Positions 15,083 to 55,340 of a stretch of 64,000 nucleotides of DNA are shown in pieces (position 1 is the first letter of the stretch; every line of letters begins with the position of its first letter). A model generated the notes under the pieces. The model had not been told where the DNA came from, made no database searches, and saw nothing but the letters and a program-made list of their open reading frames with translations. The translations under genes were made by a program, and so were the position numbers. The DNA comes from Gemmatimonadaceae bacterium (GTDB lineage: Bacteria; Gemmatimonadota; Gemmatimonadetes; Gemmatimonadales; Gemmatimonadaceae): contig JADZAN010000019.1 in the NCBI GenBank assembly GCA_020852815.1, positions 62,001 through 126,000 of the forward strand, given 5' to 3'.

Positions 15083-17656
<2,574 letters not shown>

Positions 17657-44145: not shown

Positions 44146-45480
44146 CTACTCGTGCGCCGGGAGCGGCTCCATCGTCTTCGCGTCCACCGGGACCTGCATC
44201 TCGTCGCGGTGCTTGGACGTCATCCACACCACGCGCATGCGCGGGAAGGCGTCCATGAAGCTGAGGTAGCAGAAGCCCCACAGCCCCAGGTAGCCGAGCG
44301 TCGTCCCGATCTCCCAGATGCCAAACGGCGCCGTGGTGACGGTCTGGACATAGATGGGCGGATAGATCTCGAGGTAGCGGTGCAGCCAGATCCCGATCAT
44401 CGAGCAGGCCGCGAAGAAGCTCATGGTCGGGAAGAAGAGCTTCGGTGCCTTGCCCAGCAGGCCGAAGAACGGCGCGAGGAAGGCGAGGAAGACGACCGCC
44501 ACGCTCAGGTTGGTCCACGGCTGAATGAGGGAGAGGCGCAGGCGATGCGTTTCCTCACCCCAGTTGCCGTACCAGATGACCAGGTACTGCGAGAAGGTCA
44601 GGTAGCCCCAGAACGCGGTGAAGGCAAAGCACAGCTTGCCGATGTCGTGGAAGTGCGTCTCGGTGATGACGGCGTCGGCGCCCATGTAGTCGCGCCACCA
44701 GCGCACGATGAGCGCGAAGCACATCAGCATGACGAGCCAGCCACCCATGAACACCTGCCACCCCCACATCGTCGACTGGAAGTGGTAGTCCATCGACATC
44801 GACAGGTCCCAGGCCAGGACCGTCCAGCCGAAGCCGAACGTGAGGGCGAGGAAGACCGCGAGCTTTCCCTGCAGCGAGTGTGTGGAGTGCAGCTCGCGGC
44901 GTTCCTCGCCGAAGCCGCGACGCATCCCGTCGCGCAGTCCCTTGGCCCACCCCGCGCCCCACTCGGGGAGGAGGCCGACGTCCACGCGCACCGACGTGTA
45001 GATGTACCACACGCTCAGCACGGTGAGGAGGCCGAAGACGACGAGGTCCCGGACCACGAAGAAGGTCGGTTCCAGCCACTTGGCCTTCTCGGGAACGGCG
45101 ATCGTCTCGTGCATCCACGGGAAGATGTGCCCCTTTCCTGCCAGCAGCGTGACGAGCAGGAGAACGAACGCCACGGGGAGGAAGGCGACGAACCCTTCCA
45201 CGAGGCGGATCACCGCGCGCGACCAGCGCGCCGTGGTGATGCGCTGCACCGCGGCCAGCATCACCCCCGCCGACGACGGGATCGTGAAGAAGAGCCAGTT
45301 GACGTGGAAGGCCTGCCACGCGCGGTCTTCACCCATGACCGCGCCGGCGATGAAGATGCCGAACCCGATGACCGCGAGGACGAGCGAGATCGTCTTGAGA
45401 TTCTTCGGGACCGGCTTGCCCTGGATCATGGTGACCAGGTCCTGCCGGGACGGCGTATGTGCTCCGTGATGTGCGCTCAC
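44146..45480 (-). CDS. actF: Alternative complex III, quinone-binding membrane subunit ActF
   Basis: A 444-residue integral membrane protein with about ten helices, homologous to ActC/NrfD-type subunits. Alternative complex III oxidises quinol and passes electrons to cytochrome c or directly to a haem-copper oxidase. Features: an early helix (ISLVLAVIGFGIFIAGAVMG), a loop GKGHIFPWMHETIAVPEKAK, FTAFWGYLTFSQYLVIWYGN and WEIGTTLGYLGLWGFCYLSF. The C-terminus is a short hydrophilic tail. Its start overlaps the actE stop (ATGA). It is the last act gene, followed by hairpins; no terminal-oxidase gene follows in this window. Confidence 0.93.
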   Translation of the reverse strand: MSAHHGAHTPSRQDLVTMIQGKPVPKNLKTISLVLAVIGFGIFIAGAVMGEDRAWQAFHVNWLFFTIPSSAGVMLAAVQRITTARWSRAVIRLVEGFVAFLPVAFVLLLVTLLAGKGHIFPWMHETIAVPEKAKWLEPTFFVVRDLVVFGLLTVLSVWYIYTSVRVDVGLLPEWGAGWAKGLRDGMRRGFGEERRELHSTHSLQGKLAVFLALTFGFGWTVLAWDLSMSMDYHFQSTMWGWQVFMGGWLVMLMCFALIVRWWRDYMGADAVITETHFHDIGKLCFAFTAFWGYLTFSQYLVIWYGNWGEETHRLRLSLIQPWTNLSVAVVFLAFLAPFFGLLGKAPKLFFPTMSFFAACSMIGIWLHRYLEIYPPIYVQTVTTAPFGIWEIGTTLGYLGLWGFCYLSFMDAFPRMRVVWMTSKHRDEMQVPVDAKTMEPLPAHE

Positions 45481-46232
45481 TCGTGTTCTCCCGTCTTCGC
45501 GGGGTGCGCCGCCCCTTCAGTCGTCGTCGATTCCGCCGGCCTCGCTTCGGCCGGGCGCGCCGTCACACCCGACGTCCCGTACAGCGACGCCGGCACGTGC
45601 GGCACCCAATGGTTAGGACCCAGCACCGTGGCGCCCGGGACCTTGTTGCCATTCACCCCGGGCAGGGCAATCGGGCCCGTCGCGAACTTCACGTCGGTCA
45701 CCTTCCCCTGCAGCGCGCGGAGGTAGTTGACCACGTCCCACCGATCGGACTCCTCGATGCGGTTGTACGACGGCATGAGGCCACGCCCGTTGCGCATCAT
45801 CCCGAAGATGTAGCCATCGGTGCGGTTCTTGGTCATGTCCATCACGATGTTGATGGGGGGGACGCCGTAGCGCATCGTCTTCCCCATCCCGTCGCCCTTG
45901 TCGCCGTGACAAACGGCGCAATTGATCTGGTAGTACAGGTGCCCGTTGGCCAGCGACGCCTCGGTCACCGGCGTCGGGTTCTGCGCCAGCATCCCGATCG
46001 TGTCGATCTGGAACGGGAGGTTCTGGTAGGAGACCTGCATCGCGCTCACCGCGGTCCCCGAGCGCGGCACCGACCCCTGCGGCGCCCCTCGCACCGACTT
46101 GAGGATGGAGTCCTGTTCCCAGGTGGTCACCATCGGCATGCGCTTGAAGTCGGTGAACCACTCGCACGCCGTGAGCGACAGGATCGCCGGGGCGATGAGG
46201 ATCGTCCGACGGAGTCCGCGAATGACTGGCAT
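45477..46232 (-). CDS. actE: Alternative complex III, mono-haem cytochrome c subunit ActE
   Basis: A 251-residue exported cytochrome. The signal sequence ends in ILSLTAC, a lipobox, so it is lipid-anchored like known ActE. One haem site CAVCH (in YQINCAVCHGDKGDGMGKT) is present, with a likely axial Met in RNGRGLMPSYNRI. The C-terminal ~60 residues are Ala/Pro/Thr/Glu-rich and low-complexity. The ATG at 46232 is set by the signal peptide. The 47 nt between actD and this start are almost entirely an AGAAGACG tract, which supplies the purine-rich ribosome-binding region. Confidence 0.94.
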   Translation of the reverse strand: MPVIRGLRRTILIAPAILSLTACEWFTDFKRMPMVTTWEQDSILKSVRGAPQGSVPRSGTAVSAMQVSYQNLPFQIDTIGMLAQNPTPVTEASLANGHLYYQINCAVCHGDKGDGMGKTMRYGVPPINIVMDMTKNRTDGYIFGMMRNGRGLMPSYNRIEESDRWDVVNYLRALQGKVTDVKFATGPIALPGVNGNKVPGATVLGPNHWVPHVPASLYGTSGVTARPAEARPAESTTTEGAAHPAKTGEHE

Positions 46233-46279: not shown

Positions 46280-46780
46280 TCACGATTCCCCCCGCACGTC
46301 GACCGCGCCAAACTTGCGCAGCGTCGCTTCGGCTTCCTTGAGGCGATCGGGCGCTGCCTCGACGTAGATGCCGTAATCGCCATGCGTGAAGCGCGGGTCG
46401 AACCCCGTGGTCGCCGTGATCTTGGGGATCCGCGAGTGAATGAACATCGCCGCCACCGTCGTGAGCGCCCCGACCAGCACCATCACCTCGAAGCCGATGA
46501 TGGTGTACGGGATCCAGCTCCCGATCGCCTTGCCCCCCACGACCATCGGCCAGTACTCGGACGTCCAGATCGGGATCCAGTACCCGAAGGTCACGCCCAG
46601 GAGGCCGGCAATGAGTGTGTAGCGCCGCACCGGCGACATCGGCGGCTCGAGCGCGTGCTCGATCTCGTGCCGCGGCGTCGGCGTGTACACGGTGAAATCG
46701 TACTTGGCCTTCTTCAGCGCCACGATCGCGTCGCACGTGGCGTCGAGTTCCCGAAACGCTGCTACCAGTCCGCGCCGCAT
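46280..46780 (-). CDS. actD: Alternative complex III, membrane subunit ActD
   Basis: A 166-residue protein with a cytoplasmic N-terminal domain (LVAAFRELDATCDAIVALKK, YDFTVYTPTPRHEIEHAL) and two helices (YTLIAGLLGVTFGYWIPIW; YTIIGFEVMVLVGALTTVAA). This matches the DUF3341/ActD family that bridges ActC and ActF in known structures. The C-terminal domain contains DPRFTHGDYGIYVEA and ALRKFGA-like sequence. Its start shares one base with the actC stop (TGATG). Upstream in-frame sequence is antisense-like and rejected. Confidence 0.94.
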   Translation of the reverse strand: MRRGLVAAFRELDATCDAIVALKKAKYDFTVYTPTPRHEIEHALEPPMSPVRRYTLIAGLLGVTFGYWIPIWTSEYWPMVVGGKAIGSWIPYTIIGFEVMVLVGALTTVAAMFIHSRIPKITATTGFDPRFTHGDYGIYVEAAPDRLKEAEATLRKFGAVDVRGES

Positions 46781-48222
46781 CAGTCGTGTTCTCCCGGCGT
46801 TTCCGTGCCATAGGGGAGGTGGTGCCCTTCCGTGTCGATCCCGTGCCCGCGCGCATGGCTGCGCAGCCTGGGCGGCACGACTTCCTTCACCTCGGCAATC
46901 GCCACCACGGGCAACTGCTTGATGAAGAGGAGGAACCACATGAAGAACCAGCCGAACGACCCCACGAGGATCGCCATGTCGACCCAGCTCGGCGCGTACG
47001 TCCCCCACTGCCACGGCTCGAACTCATGCGAGAGCGAGGGGACGATGATGACGAAGCGCTCGAACCACATCCCGATGTTGATGAAGATCGAGAGGATCCA
47101 CAGCCAACTGGGGTTGCGGCGCAGCTTCTGCGAGAAGAGCGACAGCGGGAAGATCATGTTGCACGTCAGCATGATCCACGCGGCCCACCACCACTCGCCG
47201 AAGACGCGGTTCCAGAAGTAGTCCTGCTCGACCTTCACGCCCGAGTACCAGGCGATGAAGAACTCGATCAGGTACGCGCACCCGACCACCATCGACGTGA
47301 AGAGGCAGAGCTTGGCCGCCGCGTCGAGATGGTTGATGGTGACGTAGTGCTGCAGCTTGAAGAACTTCCGGATGGGGATGATGATCGTGAACACCATCCC
47401 GATCCCCGAGAAGATCGCGCCGGCCACGAAGTAGGGCGGGAAGATCGTCGCGTGCCACCCCGGCGTGAGCGCCATGGCGAAGTCGAACGACACGACCGAG
47501 TGCACCGAGAGCACCAGCGGCGTCGAGAAGGCCGCCAGGAACAGGTACATCTTCATGAAGTGACGCCACTCCGGCTCGGAGTTCCGCCACCCCAGCGACA
47601 TGACCGCCAGGATCCGCTTGCGCACCGGGTTGGTCTCCCGGTCACGGAGCACCGCGATGTCGGGAATGAGTCCCACGTAAAGGAACGTCGCCGACACGGT
47701 GAGGTACGTCGAGATGGCGAACACGTCCCACACCAGCGGCGACTTGAAGTTCGGCCACAGCAGGCGCCAGTTGGGGTACGGCACCAGCCAGAAGAACTTC
47801 CACGGGCGCCCGATGTGGATGATCGGGAAGAGCCCCGCCGTCATGACCGCGAACACGGTCATCGCTTCGGCGCATCGATAGATCGTCGTGCGGAAGCCGG
47901 CGCGGAACAGGAAGAGGATCGCCGAGATCAGCGTCCCGGCGTGGCCGATACCGACCCAGAAGACGAAGGTGATGATGTACACGCCCCACATCACCGGCGG
48001 CGCATACCCCGCGTTCCCGAGCCCCCAGTAGATCTGGTAGATCCACGTCGCGGCTCCCATCAGGAAGAGCGCCACCGCCACCCCAAAGGCGGCGAACCAC
48101 CCCTTGGTCGGCTTGAGCGTCCCGATGATCTCGTTGTCGACCTGCTCGTAGTCCCGGACCCCCGGGAGCTGCACGTCGGCCGACGCGATGTTCGGCCGCA
48201 GCGGTTCAGCGAAGGAGGCCAT
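46780..48222 (-). CDS. actC: Alternative complex III, NrfD-like quinone-binding subunit ActC
   Basis: A 480-residue integral membrane protein with about ten helices, of the NrfD/PsrC family. It contains TYVYIITFVFWVGIGHAGTL-like sequence (read here as VYIITFVFWVGIGHAGTLIS), RAAEAMTVFAVMTAGLFPII-type helix 3 with HIGRPWKFFWLVPYPNWR, and VLSVHSVVSFDFAMALTPGW with the conserved His/Asp of the quinone and proton-path region. It would form the main quinol-oxidising site with ActB iron-sulfur clusters above. Start and stop share single bases with the neighbouring actB stop and actD start. Confidence 0.95.
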   Translation of the reverse strand: MASFAEPLRPNIASADVQLPGVRDYEQVDNEIIGTLKPTKGWFAAFGVAVALFLMGAATWIYQIYWGLGNAGYAPPVMWGVYIITFVFWVGIGHAGTLISAILFLFRAGFRTTIYRCAEAMTVFAVMTAGLFPIIHIGRPWKFFWLVPYPNWRLLWPNFKSPLVWDVFAISTYLTVSATFLYVGLIPDIAVLRDRETNPVRKRILAVMSLGWRNSEPEWRHFMKMYLFLAAFSTPLVLSVHSVVSFDFAMALTPGWHATIFPPYFVAGAIFSGIGMVFTIIIPIRKFFKLQHYVTINHLDAAAKLCLFTSMVVGCAYLIEFFIAWYSGVKVEQDYFWNRVFGEWWWAAWIMLTCNMIFPLSLFSQKLRRNPSWLWILSIFINIGMWFERFVIIVPSLSHEFEPWQWGTYAPSWVDMAILVGSFGWFFMWFLLFIKQLPVVAIAEVKEVVPPRLRSHARGHGIDTEGHHLPYGTETPGEHD

Positions 48223-51200
48223 TATGCCGCACCTCCCGCCGGATGATTGACGCGCTTCAAGTAGACCACCGCGGTGTAGGTACTCAGTTCCTCGAACACG
48301 TGGTAGGCGCGCGCATCGAGCGCCGCCTTGGCCACCGACCAGCTCTCGTCGGCCGCGTCACCGAAGACGATGGCCTTGGACGGGCACGCCTGCGCGCACG
48401 CCGTCGTGAACTCGTCGGCCTTCAATTCGCGCCCCTCGACCTTGGCCAGGTTCTCCGCCTCGCGGATGCGCTGCACGCAGAACGAACACTTCTCCATCAC
48501 GCCCTTGCCGCGGACGGTCACGTCCGGGTTGAGCTGCAGGTGCAACGGCTCGGGGAAGGCGTACTGGCGACGCTCCTTCTCGCCGTACCCGTGCCAGTTG
48601 TAGTAGCGCACCTTGTAGGGGCAGCCGTTGGAGCAGTAGCGCGTGCCGACACAACGGTTGTAGACCTGCACGTTGAGACCGTCAGGTGCATGATACGTCG
48701 CATACACCGGGCACACCGGCTCGCACGGCGCGTTGCCGCAGTGCTGGCACATCATCGGGACGAAGCGCGCCTCGAAGTCGCTCGAGCCGTCCTCCCCACC
48801 CTCGAAGTACCGCTCGATGCGCAACCAGCTCATCTCGCGCCCCTTGAGGATGTTCGCGCCGGGACGCGTATCCCATGCACTGTCGTCCGAGGCCGAACCG
48901 GGGCGCAGCGACCGACCCTGCCAGCGCGCCCCCACGGTCGGGATGTTGTTCTCGGCGTAACACGCCGTGACGCAGGCCGAGCACCCCGTGCACCGCGCGA
49001 GGTCGATGGTCATCGCCCAACGGCGCTTGGCCATCCCGCTCCAGTGCTTGGGGTCGTACATCCCAAGGTCCTTCGCCGTCGAGTCCGTGAGATCACCCTG
49101 CGCATCCGCCGCCAGCGGCGAGCGGAGCCCGGGAAGGAACTCGTGCGACGCGTCGCCCGGGAACTTGTGCTCCTCTTCCTTGAAGCGCCCCGCCACGACG
49201 TCGGCCACGGTGAGCGCCTGCGCGATGCCGCGCCCGTGCTGGCGCGCCGAGCCCTCGGTCGTGATCAAGTCGGACCGCTCGCCCGCCTTGCTGACCTTGG
49301 CCCTCGACTGCGTGAGCGCGAGGGCGCCGGCACCATTGTACGTCCCGCCTAACGCGCCGAGCGCGTTGATGCCGATGTCCTTCGCATACCGCCCGTAGGC
49401 GGTGTGCCCCTGCCCCAGCGCCACGGCAACGGTGTCCTGCCGGATGCCCAGGTAGATGAAGGCCGGCGCCGTGATGCTCCCGGCCGCCGTCTGCACCGTC
49501 ACGTGATCGCCCGCCACGACGCCGAGCTTCTTCGCCGTCGCCGGGTGCAATTCGATCCACGACTGCCACACGACCTTGGCCACGGGATCGGGGAGTTCCT
49601 GCAGCCACGGCTTGTTGGCCCCGGCACCGGTACCGAGCACCGCGTGCGGATACGTGACCAGGAAGTACTCGCCGTCACCGCCGATCGCCGCCGGCGCATC
49701 GGCCGAGAGCGACACGCTGGCCGTCCCCGAGGCGCGCGGGGCGATGCTGCCGTTGGACATCCCGTTGCTGAGCGCCTGCGTGAAGGCCGACGTCCCACCG
49801 GCGAAGTTGGCAATGAGGTAGTCGCGGTAGCTCTTCCACGGGAAGCGCGCCGACACCGTGGGGTCGCCCTGCGCAACCGCCAGCAGCACATCGGACGTGG
49901 CCTTGGTGTCGAAGATGCGCTCCATCACCGGCTGCTGGAGCGAGACGATCCCCGGCTTGGCCGGCGCGTCGCCCCACGACTCCAGCGCGTGATCGCTCGG
50001 GAGGACGAGGTCGCACAGCTCGCTCGTCTCGTCCGGATAGCAGGAGAACGACACCTTGAACGGGATCTTCGCCATCGCCTCGGCGAACTTCACCGACTTG
50101 GGTGTGTCGTAGGCCGGGTTGACGCCGCGGACGAAGAGAAGCGGAACGCTCCCTGCCTCGGCCTGGCGCGCGACCTCGGCGATGCGCGCCGCCCCAACCA
50201 CGCCGTCGAAGCCACTCAGCGGCTCGCCCGGCTTCACCGTCACGCCGACGTTGCCGGCCGCCTTGTTGATCTCGGCGGCGAGCGTCGCCACCACGCCAGC
50301 GTTAGGCGTGGAGACACCGGAGAGGACCAGGCTCGGGCGCGCCGAGCGCAGTTCATCGGCCAGGCGCTGCAGCGTCGCCTCGGTGACGCCGGAGGCGTCG
50401 GAGGCCTCCTTCACCGTGGCGCCGCCCGCACCACCAACGGCGGCAAGGAGCGCCCTGGCAATGGCGTCCTCGCTCCCCGGCTTGCAGGCAATCCACTCGT
50501 CGGCGTTGAGCCCGGTGAGCGAACGGCGCGGGCCGACATAGATGAAGCGCGGCGCGTGCTGCAGCCTGGCGCGGGCATCGGCAAAGGCCAGTTGCATCGG
50601 GACCGAGGCCTCGCGCCCATCCAGGAAGTCGGCGCCTAACGAAATCACCAGCGAGGCCGCCGACATGTCGACGCCGGGCATCGCCGTTCCGTAGGCCGCG
50701 ACATTGGCCGCACGCAGCGCCAGGTCGGCGCCCGAGTCGTATTGCAGCTGCGGGCCCAGGCCGAGCGCGCCGAGCCACGTGTCCACGAAGGCACCAAACG
50801 AACCGCCGTCCTGTTCGGTAAGGAAGACGGCGTTCTGCCCACGCCCCGTAGCCTTGGCCTCGCCGATCTTCTGGCGCAGGAGGGCAAGCCCCTTGTCCCA
50901 CGTGGTGGGGACGAGCTTGCCCCCCTCGCGAACGAGCGGCTGCCGGTAGCGATCGGGATTGTAGAGCCCCTGCAGCGCCGACTGCCCGCGCGCGCACAAT
51001 GCGCCGCGGTTCACCGGATGATCCGGATTCCCCTCGAGCTTGATGGCGCGCCCGTCGCGCACCTCGGCCACCACGCCGCACGCCGTCGCGCACTCGCGGC
51101 AGGTGGTGCTGTAATAGGTCGAGACCCCCGGGACCGTCTGGTCTGGCGAGACCAGGTACGGAATCAGCTTCTCGACCTTCTCCTGGCTACACCCGATAGT

Positions 51201-51281
51201 GGTCGTCACGGCGCTGGCGGCGCCCAGGACCTTGAGGAACTCGCGGCGCTTGACGCCCGCGGACCCCGTCGACTGGCTCAT
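48222..51281 (-). CDS. actB: Alternative complex III, iron-sulfur subunit ActB (molybdopterin-oxidoreductase-like fused to ferredoxin domain)
   Basis: A 1019-residue Tat-exported protein (KRREFLKVLGAASAV, residues ~11-25). Residues ~45-700 resemble a complex iron-sulfur molybdoenzyme catalytic chain with one N-terminal Cys group (CRECATACG, then CARGQ); in characterised ActB this part binds no molybdenum. The C-terminal ~270 residues are a four-cluster ferredoxin domain: CTGCSACVTACYAENN, CQHCGNAPCEPVCPVYATYH, CVGTRYCSNGCPYKVRYYNW, and CSFCVQRI with CAQACPSKAIVFGD. These relay electrons from ActC to the haems of ActA/ActE. The start follows actA by 90 bp. Confidence 0.95.
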   Translation of the reverse strand: MSQSTGSAGVKRREFLKVLGAASAVTTTIGCSQEKVEKLIPYLVSPDQTVPGVSTYYSTTCRECATACGVVAEVRDGRAIKLEGNPDHPVNRGALCARGQSALQGLYNPDRYRQPLVREGGKLVPTTWDKGLALLRQKIGEAKATGRGQNAVFLTEQDGGSFGAFVDTWLGALGLGPQLQYDSGADLALRAANVAAYGTAMPGVDMSAASLVISLGADFLDGREASVPMQLAFADARARLQHAPRFIYVGPRRSLTGLNADEWIACKPGSEDAIARALLAAVGGAGGATVKEASDASGVTEATLQRLADELRSARPSLVLSGVSTPNAGVVATLAAEINKAAGNVGVTVKPGEPLSGFDGVVGAARIAEVARQAEAGSVPLLFVRGVNPAYDTPKSVKFAEAMAKIPFKVSFSCYPDETSELCDLVLPSDHALESWGDAPAKPGIVSLQQPVMERIFDTKATSDVLLAVAQGDPTVSARFPWKSYRDYLIANFAGGTSAFTQALSNGMSNGSIAPRASGTASVSLSADAPAAIGGDGEYFLVTYPHAVLGTGAGANKPWLQELPDPVAKVVWQSWIELHPATAKKLGVVAGDHVTVQTAAGSITAPAFIYLGIRQDTVAVALGQGHTAYGRYAKDIGINALGALGGTYNGAGALALTQSRAKVSKAGERSDLITTEGSARQHGRGIAQALTVADVVAGRFKEEEHKFPGDASHEFLPGLRSPLAADAQGDLTDSTAKDLGMYDPKHWSGMAKRRWAMTIDLARCTGCSACVTACYAENNIPTVGARWQGRSLRPGSASDDSAWDTRPGANILKGREMSWLRIERYFEGGEDGSSDFEARFVPMMCQHCGNAPCEPVCPVYATYHAPDGLNVQVYNRCVGTRYCSNGCPYKVRYYNWHGYGEKERRQYAFPEPLHLQLNPDVTVRGKGVMEKCSFCVQRIREAENLAKVEGRELKADEFTTACAQACPSKAIVFGDAADESWSVAKAALDARAYHVFEELSTYTAVVYLKRVNHPAGGAA

Positions 51282-51371: not shown

Positions 51372-52013
51372 CTAGTAGTGGCAGATGGCGCAGTCGTACC
51401 GCGCCTTCTTCGGGGGCTCGTTGGCGACCGCCTTCGCGCCCACCGTGTCACCGGCAGCCAACAGCCCATCACTGAGCTTGTAGCCGTCCACGTGACACCG
51501 CACGCACCACCCCATGTTGAGCGACGCAACCTGCGACACCTGCGCCATGTTCTGCACGGCACCGTGGCACGTCTGGCACGTCACCCCCGCACTCACGTGC
51601 CGCATGTGCGGGAAGTGCACGTACTCGGGGACCTTGTGGATGCGCTCCCAGGGAATGCCCTGCCACTTATCCGGCTGCCCGGGAGGGGCGAGCTTGAGCA
51701 GCTTCGTGAGTTCCGCGCTCACGCGTGCCGGCTTGCCATCCATGGCCGGGCGATTCGGGCCGACCACCGTATGGCAGCCCATGCACGTGCCCACCGCCGG
51801 TAGCCCGGGATCGGGCGACTTGTTGGCGCTGTAGTGGCAATAGAGGCAGTTCATCCCCAGCGTCTGGACGTGCACCGGATGAGGGAACTGGATCGGCTGC
51901 ACGGGGGAGAACCCCTGCGACGACGACGCGCCGCTATACGCCGAGAGGAGGGTCGCCGCCGCCGCGATGGCGAAGAACGCCGGAACGAGCGTCCACTTGC
52001 GCCTGCTCGTCAT
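51372..52013 (-). CDS. actA: Alternative complex III, pentahaem cytochrome c ActA
   Basis: A 213-residue exported or membrane-anchored cytochrome with one N-terminal helix (FFAIAAAATLLSAYSGA). Five haem-binding motifs are visible: CLYCH, CMGCH, CQTCH, CVRCH and CAICH, the last only one residue from the C-terminus. This is the pentahaem ActA pattern known from Rhodothermus and Chloroflexus. The ATG has AGGA 5 nt upstream. First gene of the operon, with a near-perfect palindrome 40-60 bp upstream of the start. Confidence 0.95.
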   Translation of the reverse strand: MTSRRKWTLVPAFFAIAAAATLLSAYSGASSSQGFSPVQPIQFPHPVHVQTLGMNCLYCHYSANKSPDPGLPAVGTCMGCHTVVGPNRPAMDGKPARVSAELTKLLKLAPPGQPDKWQGIPWERIHKVPEYVHFPHMRHVSAGVTCQTCHGAVQNMAQVSQVASLNMGWCVRCHVDGYKLSDGLLAAGDTVGAKAVANEPPKKARYDCAICHY

Positions 52014-52053: not shown

Positions 52054-52073
52054 CTTGTGAATCATTTCACAAG
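52054..52073. promoter_or_regulatory. Rex/CRP-type operator palindrome upstream of actA
   Basis: A perfect palindrome CTTGTGAA-N4-TTCACAAG is centred about 50 bp upstream of the actA start codon. TTGTGAA-N4-TTCACAA equals the published Rex (NADH-sensing repressor) consensus. The same bases also contain TGTGA-N6-TCACA, the CRP core, so the two readings cannot be separated by eye. The position suits promoter control of the respiratory operon. The surrounding 225-bp gap (52014-52238) holds no gene and is locally AT-richer, as expected for a promoter. Confidence 0.65.
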
Positions 52074-52238
52074 AATCCGAAACAGCGGCGAAAAATGACC
52101 ACGCCGATGCCTACGTGCAAGAGTGGGGAACGCTGAGCGTTGCCCCGTTTCGCGCTCGTCAGGCACCAGCCGCGCCCCCGCATCTTGGCGACGCGACGCG
52201 AATCCGACAACTCCTCTGCATTCACTTTTTCAACCGCA

Positions 52239-53153
52239 TCATTCTCGCGCGCTCCCCACCCGTCCAATCGAGGCGCGCGCCTCGCCGAGGGGCGCGTCAC
52301 GAACATCCGCGGGGAGGAGCGCGAGATTGGCGCGCGCCCCCTGCGTCAGGCGAAGCGGCCACATGGTGCCGTACACGAAGCGCGCGCTGCCAATCGTCCT
52401 GAACAGCGTTGCCAGTTCATCGCTGGGGGGGCCCCAGATCCAGCTGAAGTCGAAGAGCACTGCCTCGCGCTCCACGGGGGTGAGCCCCCAGTACACCTCC
52501 TCCACGAAGTCGCGTCCGCCGGCGGTGACGACGATTTGCGCCGCGTGCGGTCCCGAAGGCGGTCCCGCGTATCGCCCAGCGTGCGACGCCACGGTCGCGC
52601 GCACGAGCTCGCGTACGAGCTCGCGCACGTGCGCCGCGCTCAGGTCGCCGGCCACGTCGAGCGCATGCCGCTGCCGAACGTCCTCGAATCGAACGGTGAG
52701 GAGGAGCGGGAGCCCTGCGTGGCCGCACGCGGTGGCGAGCTGCGTCAACCGTTCATCCCCCGGTGCGAATCCCCACAGCTGCGGGTATGCGCGTATGGCG
52801 CCGGCGCCGGCGTCGGCAAGCTGCTGCAGCGCATCGCGCCACCCCGGCCAATCCGGGCGGACGATTGGCGCCGGGATGAGGACGTCATGATGCGGCGCCA
52901 GGCGCTGGAGCAGCTCGGCGTTCCCCGCCGCGGGATCGCGGTGGAAGGCGGAAGGGAGGTGGCCAACCCAGGCGTGCGCGATCCCCTCGCGCGCGAGCAC
53001 CCGCACCAGGACCTCGGGATCGGGGTGCGGGAGGTGGCGAAACGGATAGCCGCCAATGAAGGTACTGACGTCGAGGGCGACGGGGCTCGGCGCGGATTGG
53101 CCCGCGCCGGCGGCGTCGGCGCGGGGCGATGGGAGGGGGGCGGCGTTAGGCAT
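52239..53153 (-). CDS. Amidohydrolase-like TIM-barrel protein
   Basis: 304 residues, no signal peptide. A TIM-barrel of the amidohydrolase-2 type is suggested by DVSTFIGGYPFRHLPHPDPE at the N-terminus, GAIRAYPQLWGFAP in the middle, AQIVVTAGGRDFVEEVYWGL, and SARFVYGTMWPLRL near the end. The usual HxH metal motif and the late Asp are not obvious, so it may be non-catalytic or use an altered site. Its start overlaps the stop of the next amidohydrolase gene by 8 nt, so the two are made together and may form a pair. Function unknown. Confidence 0.75.
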   Translation of the reverse strand: MPNAAPLPSPRADAAGAGQSAPSPVALDVSTFIGGYPFRHLPHPDPEVLVRVLAREGIAHAWVGHLPSAFHRDPAAGNAELLQRLAPHHDVLIPAPIVRPDWPGWRDALQQLADAGAGAIRAYPQLWGFAPGDERLTQLATACGHAGLPLLLTVRFEDVRQRHALDVAGDLSAAHVRELVRELVRATVASHAGRYAGPPSGPHAAQIVVTAGGRDFVEEVYWGLTPVEREAVLFDFSWIWGPPSDELATLFRTIGSARFVYGTMWPLRLTQGARANLALLPADVRDAPLGEARASIGRVGSARE

Positions 53154-54000
53154 GGACCAGCTCCGAAAGCCCGGGGAACGCCCCCGGGGGAAAGAGGCGT
53201 GCCGCGTTGCGCCATCGCACGTCGTGCAGCGCCTCGTCGGAGGCGATCACCAGGTCGAGCGCCCAGAGCTTGGCCAGGCCGGTGCACAGCGTCAGGTCGC
53301 CCCCCCACAGCAGCCGGCGTGCCCCGACGGCGTCGAACGCACCATCGAGCATCCCGCGGTCAATGCCGCTCCCCGACAGGTCGAGGTGGATGTTGGGGAC
53401 GTCGCGGACGGCGTCGAAGGTGTGCGCGTAGTCCCCTCCCCCGCCAATGTGCGCAAGGATGAACTGGACGGTGGGAAAGCGCGACGCCAGTTGCGCCAGG
53501 TCGGCGCCGTCGGAGATGTCCTGCCCGGGCCAGTGACGGCGCCGGTGCTGCCAGATGTGATGGAGGACGGGAAGGCCGTACGCGCGCGCTCTCTCGATCA
53601 CGGCGTCGAGCACGGCATCATCGCAGCGGCGCGCGGCGGCGAGCTTGAGCCCCACCGCGCCGTGCGCCACGCAGCGCTCGATCTCGCGCACCGCGAACTC
53701 ACCATCGTTGGGGTTCACCGCAACGTAGGCTCGCACGTGCGCCGGGTGATCGGCGTGCATGCGCAGGGCGAAGTCGTTCCCCTGCACCGTATCGTTTGGG
53801 GACTGGAAGTACGTGGGCGACGTGGCCCCCCACGTTCCCAGGACCGACGTCACGTGGTAGCGAATCCCGATCGCTGCGCCCGCCTCGAGGCGGCGCGCAT
53901 TGAGCGTGGCCCAGTCGCCCTTGCCGGCGTCGGGCTGGAAGAAGTGCGCATGGACATCGATGAGCGGCGCGCTCCCGCCGTGCGGTGCCGGGACGCTCAC
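53146..54000 (-). CDS. Metal-dependent amidohydrolase (amidohydrolase-2 / ACMSD-like)
   Basis: 284 residues. The metal motif LIDVHAHFF (HxH) is at residues ~14-22, PVLHHIWQHRRRHW supplies a barrel His, FILAHIGGGGDYAHTFDAVR a second, and LLWGGDLTLCTGLAKLWAL near the end carries an Asp. Relatives include ACMSD decarboxylases and lactonase- or hydratase-type enzymes. It overlaps the aminotransferase gene (ATGA) and the second amidohydrolase gene (8 nt), implying a single pathway. Substrate unknown. Confidence 0.86.
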   Translation of the reverse strand: MSVPAPHGGSAPLIDVHAHFFQPDAGKGDWATLNARRLEAGAAIGIRYHVTSVLGTWGATSPTYFQSPNDTVQGNDFALRMHADHPAHVRAYVAVNPNDGEFAVREIERCVAHGAVGLKLAAARRCDDAVLDAVIERARAYGLPVLHHIWQHRRRHWPGQDISDGADLAQLASRFPTVQFILAHIGGGGDYAHTFDAVRDVPNIHLDLSGSGIDRGMLDGAFDAVGARRLLWGGDLTLCTGLAKLWALDLVIASDEALHDVRWRNAARLFPPGAFPGLSELVHA

Positions 54001-55340
54001 CGCGCTTCCGCCTCCAGGACGTCAACCAGCGCGGTGCTGGCCACACGCTCCACCTCGAGCAGGATCGCATCGTCGTCGTGGGCAACCGCTGCGTAGTTGT
54101 AGGGGCCGCGCTTGAACAGCACGCCGTGCGCCGCGGCGCGCTCCAGGAATGCGCGCTGACGCCCCTCGTCCTCGAAGTCGATGGTCCACATCGGGTCGAT
54201 CCCGGAGACCGAGACTCCCGGAAGCCCGCTGGCCGCGGCGGCGGTCGCCACGCTCTCGCGCATCTGCTTTCCCACCCGCCACAACGTCGCGCAGACGTCC
54301 ATCTCGGCGTGGATGTCGAGCACCGCGAGCGCCGCCGACAGCGCGACCGACTCGCCCGCCAGCGTCACCGAGATCCAGGTCTGCTCGGCGGCCTCCATTA
54401 CCGCGGCGCGTCCAACCACGGCGGCGAGAGGATAACCATTCGCCATCGCCTTGCCGAACGCCGCCAGGTCGGGATCGATCCCGGCAAACTGCTGGTAGCC
54501 GCCCGTGGCGAGGCGAAACCCGGTCTTCATCTCATCGAAGATGAGGACGGCGCCGGTGGCGTCGCAGATGCGCCGCGCGGCGCCAATCCACTCGGCCGTC
54601 GCCAGCTCGTTGACGACCGGCTCGATCGCGATCGCGGCGAGGTTGCGCCCGGCGGTGCGCCCGGCGAGTTCCAGGGCGCCGATGTCGTTGAAGGGAACAC
54701 GGACAAAGTCGCCGCTCGCGCCAGCGGGAATGCCCGCCCCCTGGCTGCACCAGTCCTGCCAGCCAAAGTAGCCGCTCCCGATCACCGTGGACCGCCCCGT
54801 CGCGGTGCGCGCGATGCGCACCGCCGCGGCCATCGCCTCGCCCCCCGACTTGAGGAAGCGCACCTGCTCCGCGCAGGGGATCACCTCACACAGGCGCTCC
54901 GCCAGCTCCACCTCGGCCGTGCTGGAGAGGCCGCACACGTTGCCGCTGGCGACCGCCGTCAGCACGGCGCGGTTGATGGCCTCGTCGCCGTAGCCGATCG
55001 CCACCGAGCCTAACGCCATCGTGCAGTCGACCATCGTCCGGTTGGACGGCGTGACGATGCGGCATCCCTGGGCGGAGGTGAAGTGGGCGGCGCCATCGAC
55101 CGAATCGGGACCATAGATCGATTCGGGGCGCTTGCTCCCGGTCGACGCCCCGCCTGGAATCGCGATCGCCGCGCGATCGCGCCAGTCGCGGTCGATCTCG
55201 TCGGCGCCGAGTGCCGCCTCGGGGTGGAGTCCCTCGTCGTCGCCGTCATCGTCCGCTGGCGAGTCGTCGTCGACGTCCTCGTCGCTCGGGGGTGGAGGTG
55301 GCTGGTCGTTGCCGCGGCCGAAGAATCGCTTGAAGGGCAT
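53997..55340 (-). CDS. Class III PLP-dependent aminotransferase (glutamate-1-semialdehyde aminomutase-like)
   Basis: 447 residues. After a ~45-residue acidic, Pro-rich N-tail, the fold-type I domain resembles GSA aminomutase and related aminotransferases: LKSGGEAMAAAVRIARTATG binds phosphate, LIFDEMKTGFR contains the PLP-contacting Asp, and AFGKAMANGYPLAAVVGR holds the Schiff-base Lys. A haem-pathway HemL is unlikely because the cluster holds no haem genes and the N-tail is unusual. It could transaminate an amino or keto sugar, or a polyamine, in the cluster with the amidohydrolases. That is inference. Confidence 0.88.
   Translation of the reverse strand: MPFKRFFGRGNDQPPPPPSDEDVDDDSPADDDGDDEGLHPEAALGADEIDRDWRDRAAIAIPGGASTGSKRPESIYGPDSVDGAAHFTSAQGCRIVTPSNRTMVDCTMALGSVAIGYGDEAINRAVLTAVASGNVCGLSSTAEVELAERLCEVIPCAEQVRFLKSGGEAMAAAVRIARTATGRSTVIGSGYFGWQDWCSQGAGIPAGASGDFVRVPFNDIGALELAGRTAGRNLAAIAIEPVVNELATAEWIGAARRICDATGAVLIFDEMKTGFRLATGGYQQFAGIDPDLAAFGKAMANGYPLAAVVGRAAVMEAAEQTWISVTLAGESVALSAALAVLDIHAEMDVCATLWRVGKQMRESVATAAAASGLPGVSVSGIDPMWTIDFEDEGRQRAFLERAAAHGVLFKRGPYNYAAVAHDDDAILLEVERVASTALVDVLEAEAR

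Follow-up and report, generated by a model that had tools for sequence, protein, structure and literature searches.

The perfect inverted repeat in front of the actABCDEF operon is best explained as an operator for Rex, the repressor that senses NAD(H); Rex is predicted here to control the act genes, rex itself, and two ATP synthase operons. From sequence comparisons, we put the probability of this reading at about 0.88. The repeat lies in a stretch of 64,000 nucleotides (here, the window) from a Gemmatimonadaceae genome of 5.38 Mb in 47 contigs (G000). Alternative complex III, the product of the act genes, stands in for cytochrome bc1 in many bacteria. With a Rex operator at this locus, quinol oxidation and ATP synthase would both follow the NADH/NAD+ ratio as parts of one small regulon.

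The act operon and its operator

The operon runs on the minus strand from 52013 to 44146, with actA as the first gene. The subunit set of alternative complex III, including ActD, is complete, with ActA to ActE assigned by Pfam matches and ActF by position (Table 1); a Pfam search of actF at a threshold of 0.001 returned no match. ActA is encoded in 235 of 246 genomes sampled across the class. Upstream of the operon (window 52239 to 55340, minus strand), the translations suggest two adjacent amidohydrolase-fold-like genes and an aminotransferase-like gene.

The repeat has the form CTTGTGAA-TCAT-TTCACAAG with arms of 8 bp, in which TTGTGAATCATTTCACAA (52055 to 52072) is extended by one further paired base on either side. 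The Rex consensus has been published as TTGTGAANNNNTTCACAA (PMC5317091; PMC5355995); the generalized motif is that of Ravcheev et al. 2012, quoted here after PMC5317091. The initial annotation had described the repeat as an exact Rex consensus before actA that also holds a CRP core, and both descriptions were borne out. All 14 fixed positions of TTGTGAAN4TTCACAA are matched with 0 mismatches, the operator edge lies 41 bp upstream of the actA ATG, and TGTGA-N6-TCACA is contained within the operator (52054 to 52073). A scan of the window allowing up to three mismatches gave 2 matches, compared with 0.34 expected. The match at 16297 was rejected as a further operator, as its 3 mismatches place it at chance level.

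Table 1. Predicted features of the act locus (window coordinates)
Feature	Position	Strand	Basis
Rex-type operator, predicted	52054..52073		Exact consensus match; conserved before actA in 44/60 family genomes, ≤1 mismatch
Putative -35 element TTGCAC, act promoter (inferred)	52115..52120	-	Element common to 11 loci
Putative -10 element CATTTT, act promoter (inferred)	52092..52097	-	Element common to 11 loci
actA, multihaem cytochrome c subunit (cytochrome c7 type)	51372..52013	-	PF14522 3.4e-11
actB, molybdopterin-like and 4Fe-4S subunit	48222..51281	-	PF04879, PF00384, PF12838
actC, NrfD-like membrane subunit	46780..48222	-	PF03916 9.3e-29
actD	46280..46780	-	PF11821 ActD 2.9e-41
actE, monohaem cytochrome c subunit	45477..46232	-	PF13442 8.8e-11
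actF, last operon gene	44146..45480	-	Position and membrane-protein character

Conservation of the operator

The site is retained by most relatives that carry the same operon. The window's family was sampled with 60 genomes from 22 genera; an operator with at most one mismatch precedes actA in 44 of these genomes and in 18 genera, and it is perfect in 37 genomes. The four genera without an actA site are g4, g11, g21, and g16, the last of which lacks rex. At some loci the ActA match starts inside a longer protein; in those that were checked, in-frame ATGs occur 37 to 48 bp after the site, so the spacing between site and start is unchanged there. Outside the family, 30 sampled genomes, most of which have rex, yielded an actA site with up to one mismatch in one genome and with up to two in one. 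Among public records, many assemblies labelled Gemmatimonadaceae or Gemmatimonadetes also have a perfect site in front of actA.

Across the 18 genera, the arm sequence of the actA sites is fixed, while the four central bases vary; constant arms around a variable center are the mark of a protein-binding site. An inverted repeat in a probable 5' leader could also be a chance palindrome or an RNA hairpin to which no protein binds. However, a hairpin would tolerate compensatory arm changes that keep pairing and lose sequence, and none were seen. Furthermore, the reversed-pattern control is absent from all 246 genomes of the class sample, and the identical sequence type recurs before rex and the atp genes. 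We therefore regard a chance or hairpin origin as highly improbable.

Rex-type sites in the genome

The question of further copies, also raised in the initial annotation, was answered by a scan of G000 with up to two mismatches, which found four sites only (0 for the reversed-pattern control): the act operator and three others, before rex, atpAG, and atpZIB. The second perfect site ends 13 bp before rex. TTGTGATAATTTTCACAA ends 45 bp before atpA of the atpAG operon, and TTGCGAAAAATTTCACAA lies directly before atpZ, in a cluster with atpI, atpB, atpF, and atpH on a different contig. Given this placement, each of the four sites fronts rex or respiratory/ATP synthase genes. These promoters form a short list for binding tests. 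The ATP synthase genes themselves are split over contigs C14 and C46 of G000 (L038, L039), atpZ, I, B, F, and H versus atpA and G, with a Rex-type site for each group.

Two looser matches, at C17:38180 and C24:78783, were set aside; by eye, no respiratory gene is evident nearby. The sequence GTGTGATGCATATCACAA at C17:38180-38197 (L137, 1501 to 1518) is CRP-like and deviates from the Rex consensus at inner positions, and judged by its sequence it is possibly a real CRP target. A cupredoxin homologue of G000 (C9:125536, L139) has no Rex site, the best match having 6 mismatches.

The Rex and CRP proteins

Homologues of both candidate regulators, for which the initial annotation had suggested looking, are encoded in G000. 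The rex gene is single copy (one PF06971 match; locus L002, 841 to 1488), and its product of 215 residues matches only Rex proteins among solved structures (best E value, about 1e-46). Twelve DNA-contact residues have been described in T. maritima Rex, among which Arg48 and Lys49 read the major groove (PMC8836258). Eleven of the 12 are identical in the G000 protein, and both groove-reading residues are among these. One clear CRP-type protein with a cNMP-binding domain was also found.

In the G000 Rex, the GxGxxG motif is kept, as is the residue equivalent to Tyr100. In most Rex proteins of the class, including that of G000, T. maritima Asp191 is replaced by Asn. In NADH-bound T. maritima Rex, Asp191 pairs with Tyr100. 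Moreover, the Tyr100 counterpart is His in the Rex proteins of G093 and G127. Because of these two replacements, the NADH response of Rex in this lineage may differ from the textbook one. It is thus conceivable that Rex binds the operator but responds to a signal other than the NADH/NAD+ ratio. We consider this unlikely, since the GxGxxG motif and Asp114 are kept, as is Tyr99 of the NAD site in the G000 protein.

Rex or CRP as the reader of the site

The initial annotation had left open whether Rex or a CRP-like protein reads the operator, and the distribution of sites bears on this question. In the class sample, rex is present in 220 of 246 genomes and absent from 26, six of the latter having been assigned by elimination. 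The perfect pattern occurs in 182 of the 246 genomes, and the reversed control occurs in 0. Perfect sites were found in 180 of 220 rex-bearing genomes versus 2 of 26 rex-less genomes (Fisher P = 5e-14, a value that ignores kinship among these related genomes). An assembly gap is possible in the 2 rex-less genomes with a site, as other members of their genera have rex.

Alternatively, a CRP/FNR-family protein might read the site, alone or together with Rex, so that act would answer to a cyclic-nucleotide signal. The TGTGA-N6-TCACA core and the CRP-type protein of G000 agree with this possibility. Sites would then be expected in CRP-bearing genomes regardless of rex. However, among the 26 rex-less genomes, 24 encode a CRP-type helix-turn-helix (13 above the curated cutoff), yet 24 are without a site. 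The sites track rex and not CRP, which favors Rex. Likewise, all 14 Rex consensus positions are kept, beyond the CRP core, the second perfect site fronts rex, and the operator probably lies downstream of the putative transcription start, a position that would not suit an activator. Control by a CRP/FNR-family protein is therefore quite unlikely. Overall, the operator of rex itself, the co-occurrence, and the repressor-like geometry appear to settle the earlier ambiguity toward Rex.

Promoter geometry and proposed mechanism

Eleven loci with a site share a TTGNNN-17 bp-[CG]ATT[TA]T element whose downstream end is 16 to 19 bp from the operator. At act, the putative promoter elements are weak consensus matches (Table 1). 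With a start about 7 bp past the -10 element, the operator would span about +14 to +31. The act operator thus probably lies just downstream of the transcription start, which fits a repressor. In S. avermitilis, Rex sites occur both over promoters and downstream of them (PMC5355995).

Following known Rex biology (PMC8836258, PMC5355995), we propose that Rex with NAD+ would sit immediately past the act promoter and prevent transcription of actABCDEF. At low NADH, the same Rex would also repress its own gene and the two ATP synthase operons. A build-up of NADH, under low oxygen or carbon excess, would then release Rex from act, atp, and rex, and more quinol-oxidizing complex and ATP synthase would be made. 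The operator type seen at act also precedes rex and the ATP synthase genes and has been retained among relatives, so the respiratory chain of this bacterium is probably adjusted to the NADH level.

Rex-type sites in related genera

A site with up to two mismatches precedes rex in all 20 loci read, which represent eight families. Sites before atpA were found in G039, G140, G221, G063, G060, and G093, and sites before atpZ-I-B were found in the same genomes with the exception of G060. In genera g4 and g21, sites were detected before nuoA (called from the protein itself and a nuoB-like gene downstream), an etfB-like gene, a cupredoxin gene, and a type II NADH dehydrogenase gene (ndh2). The g4/g21 cupredoxin is of the plastocyanin/azurin type (PF00127, 2.2e-17). 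In family f2, a second site lies on the same contig as actA at a distance of 13 to 17 kb; in the three genomes examined there, the gene behind it likewise looks like a cupredoxin gene of this kind. A cupredoxin lipoprotein gene with a Rex-type site was observed in other genera as well as in family f2 (L104, L111, L113, L109, L117 to L119). This cupredoxin may be an electron carrier acting after alternative complex III.

Rex control might slide along the respiratory chain between genera, resting on act in most and on complex I, NDH-2, ETF, or cupredoxin elsewhere, with the rex and ATP synthase operators fixed. Lineages would thus choose which step is gated by NADH. We give this generalization an even chance of being correct; it would exemplify a regulator that acts on different respiratory targets in related genera.

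Most genomes of genus g51 (family f7) contain 3 to 17 perfect sites, compared with one or two in most members of the class. In one of them (G006; L120 to L136), the genes behind perfect sites do not look respiratory. Either the Rex regulon has grown in this genus or a different factor shares the motif.

Comparison with known Rex regulons

Respiratory genes and ATP synthase are already known as Rex targets. In the literature covered, which does not extend to the survey of Ravcheev et al. 2012, we found neither an account of Rex controlling alternative complex III nor a Rex regulon described for Gemmatimonadota. Alternative complex III would thus be a newly recognized target within a regulon of known type, although an earlier prediction in Ravcheev et al. 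2012 is possible.

The generalized Rex motif TTGTGAANNNNTTCACAA is matched by the act operator at all 14 fixed positions. The CRP site TGTGA-N6-TCACA shares its core with the act operator, which differs in its rex-linked distribution, its extended arms, and a position that fits Rex repression. Caldithrix has both alternative complex III and Rex, with the reported Rex site located before a rex-hydrogenase cluster.

The Rex regulon of S. avermitilis comprises atpIBEFHAGDC, cydA1B1CD, nuoA1-N1, rex-hemAC1DB, hppA, and ndh2 (PMC5355995). The regulon proposed here resembles it in the operator consensus, in rex autoregulation, and in ATP synthase as a target, the latter two predicted here from sites. 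Likewise, nuo and ndh2 have sites in relatives of G000. In contrast, the quinol-oxidizing target is alternative complex III here and cytochrome bd in S. avermitilis, rex is without attached hem genes in the stretch read, and ATP synthase is encoded by two operons with one site each.
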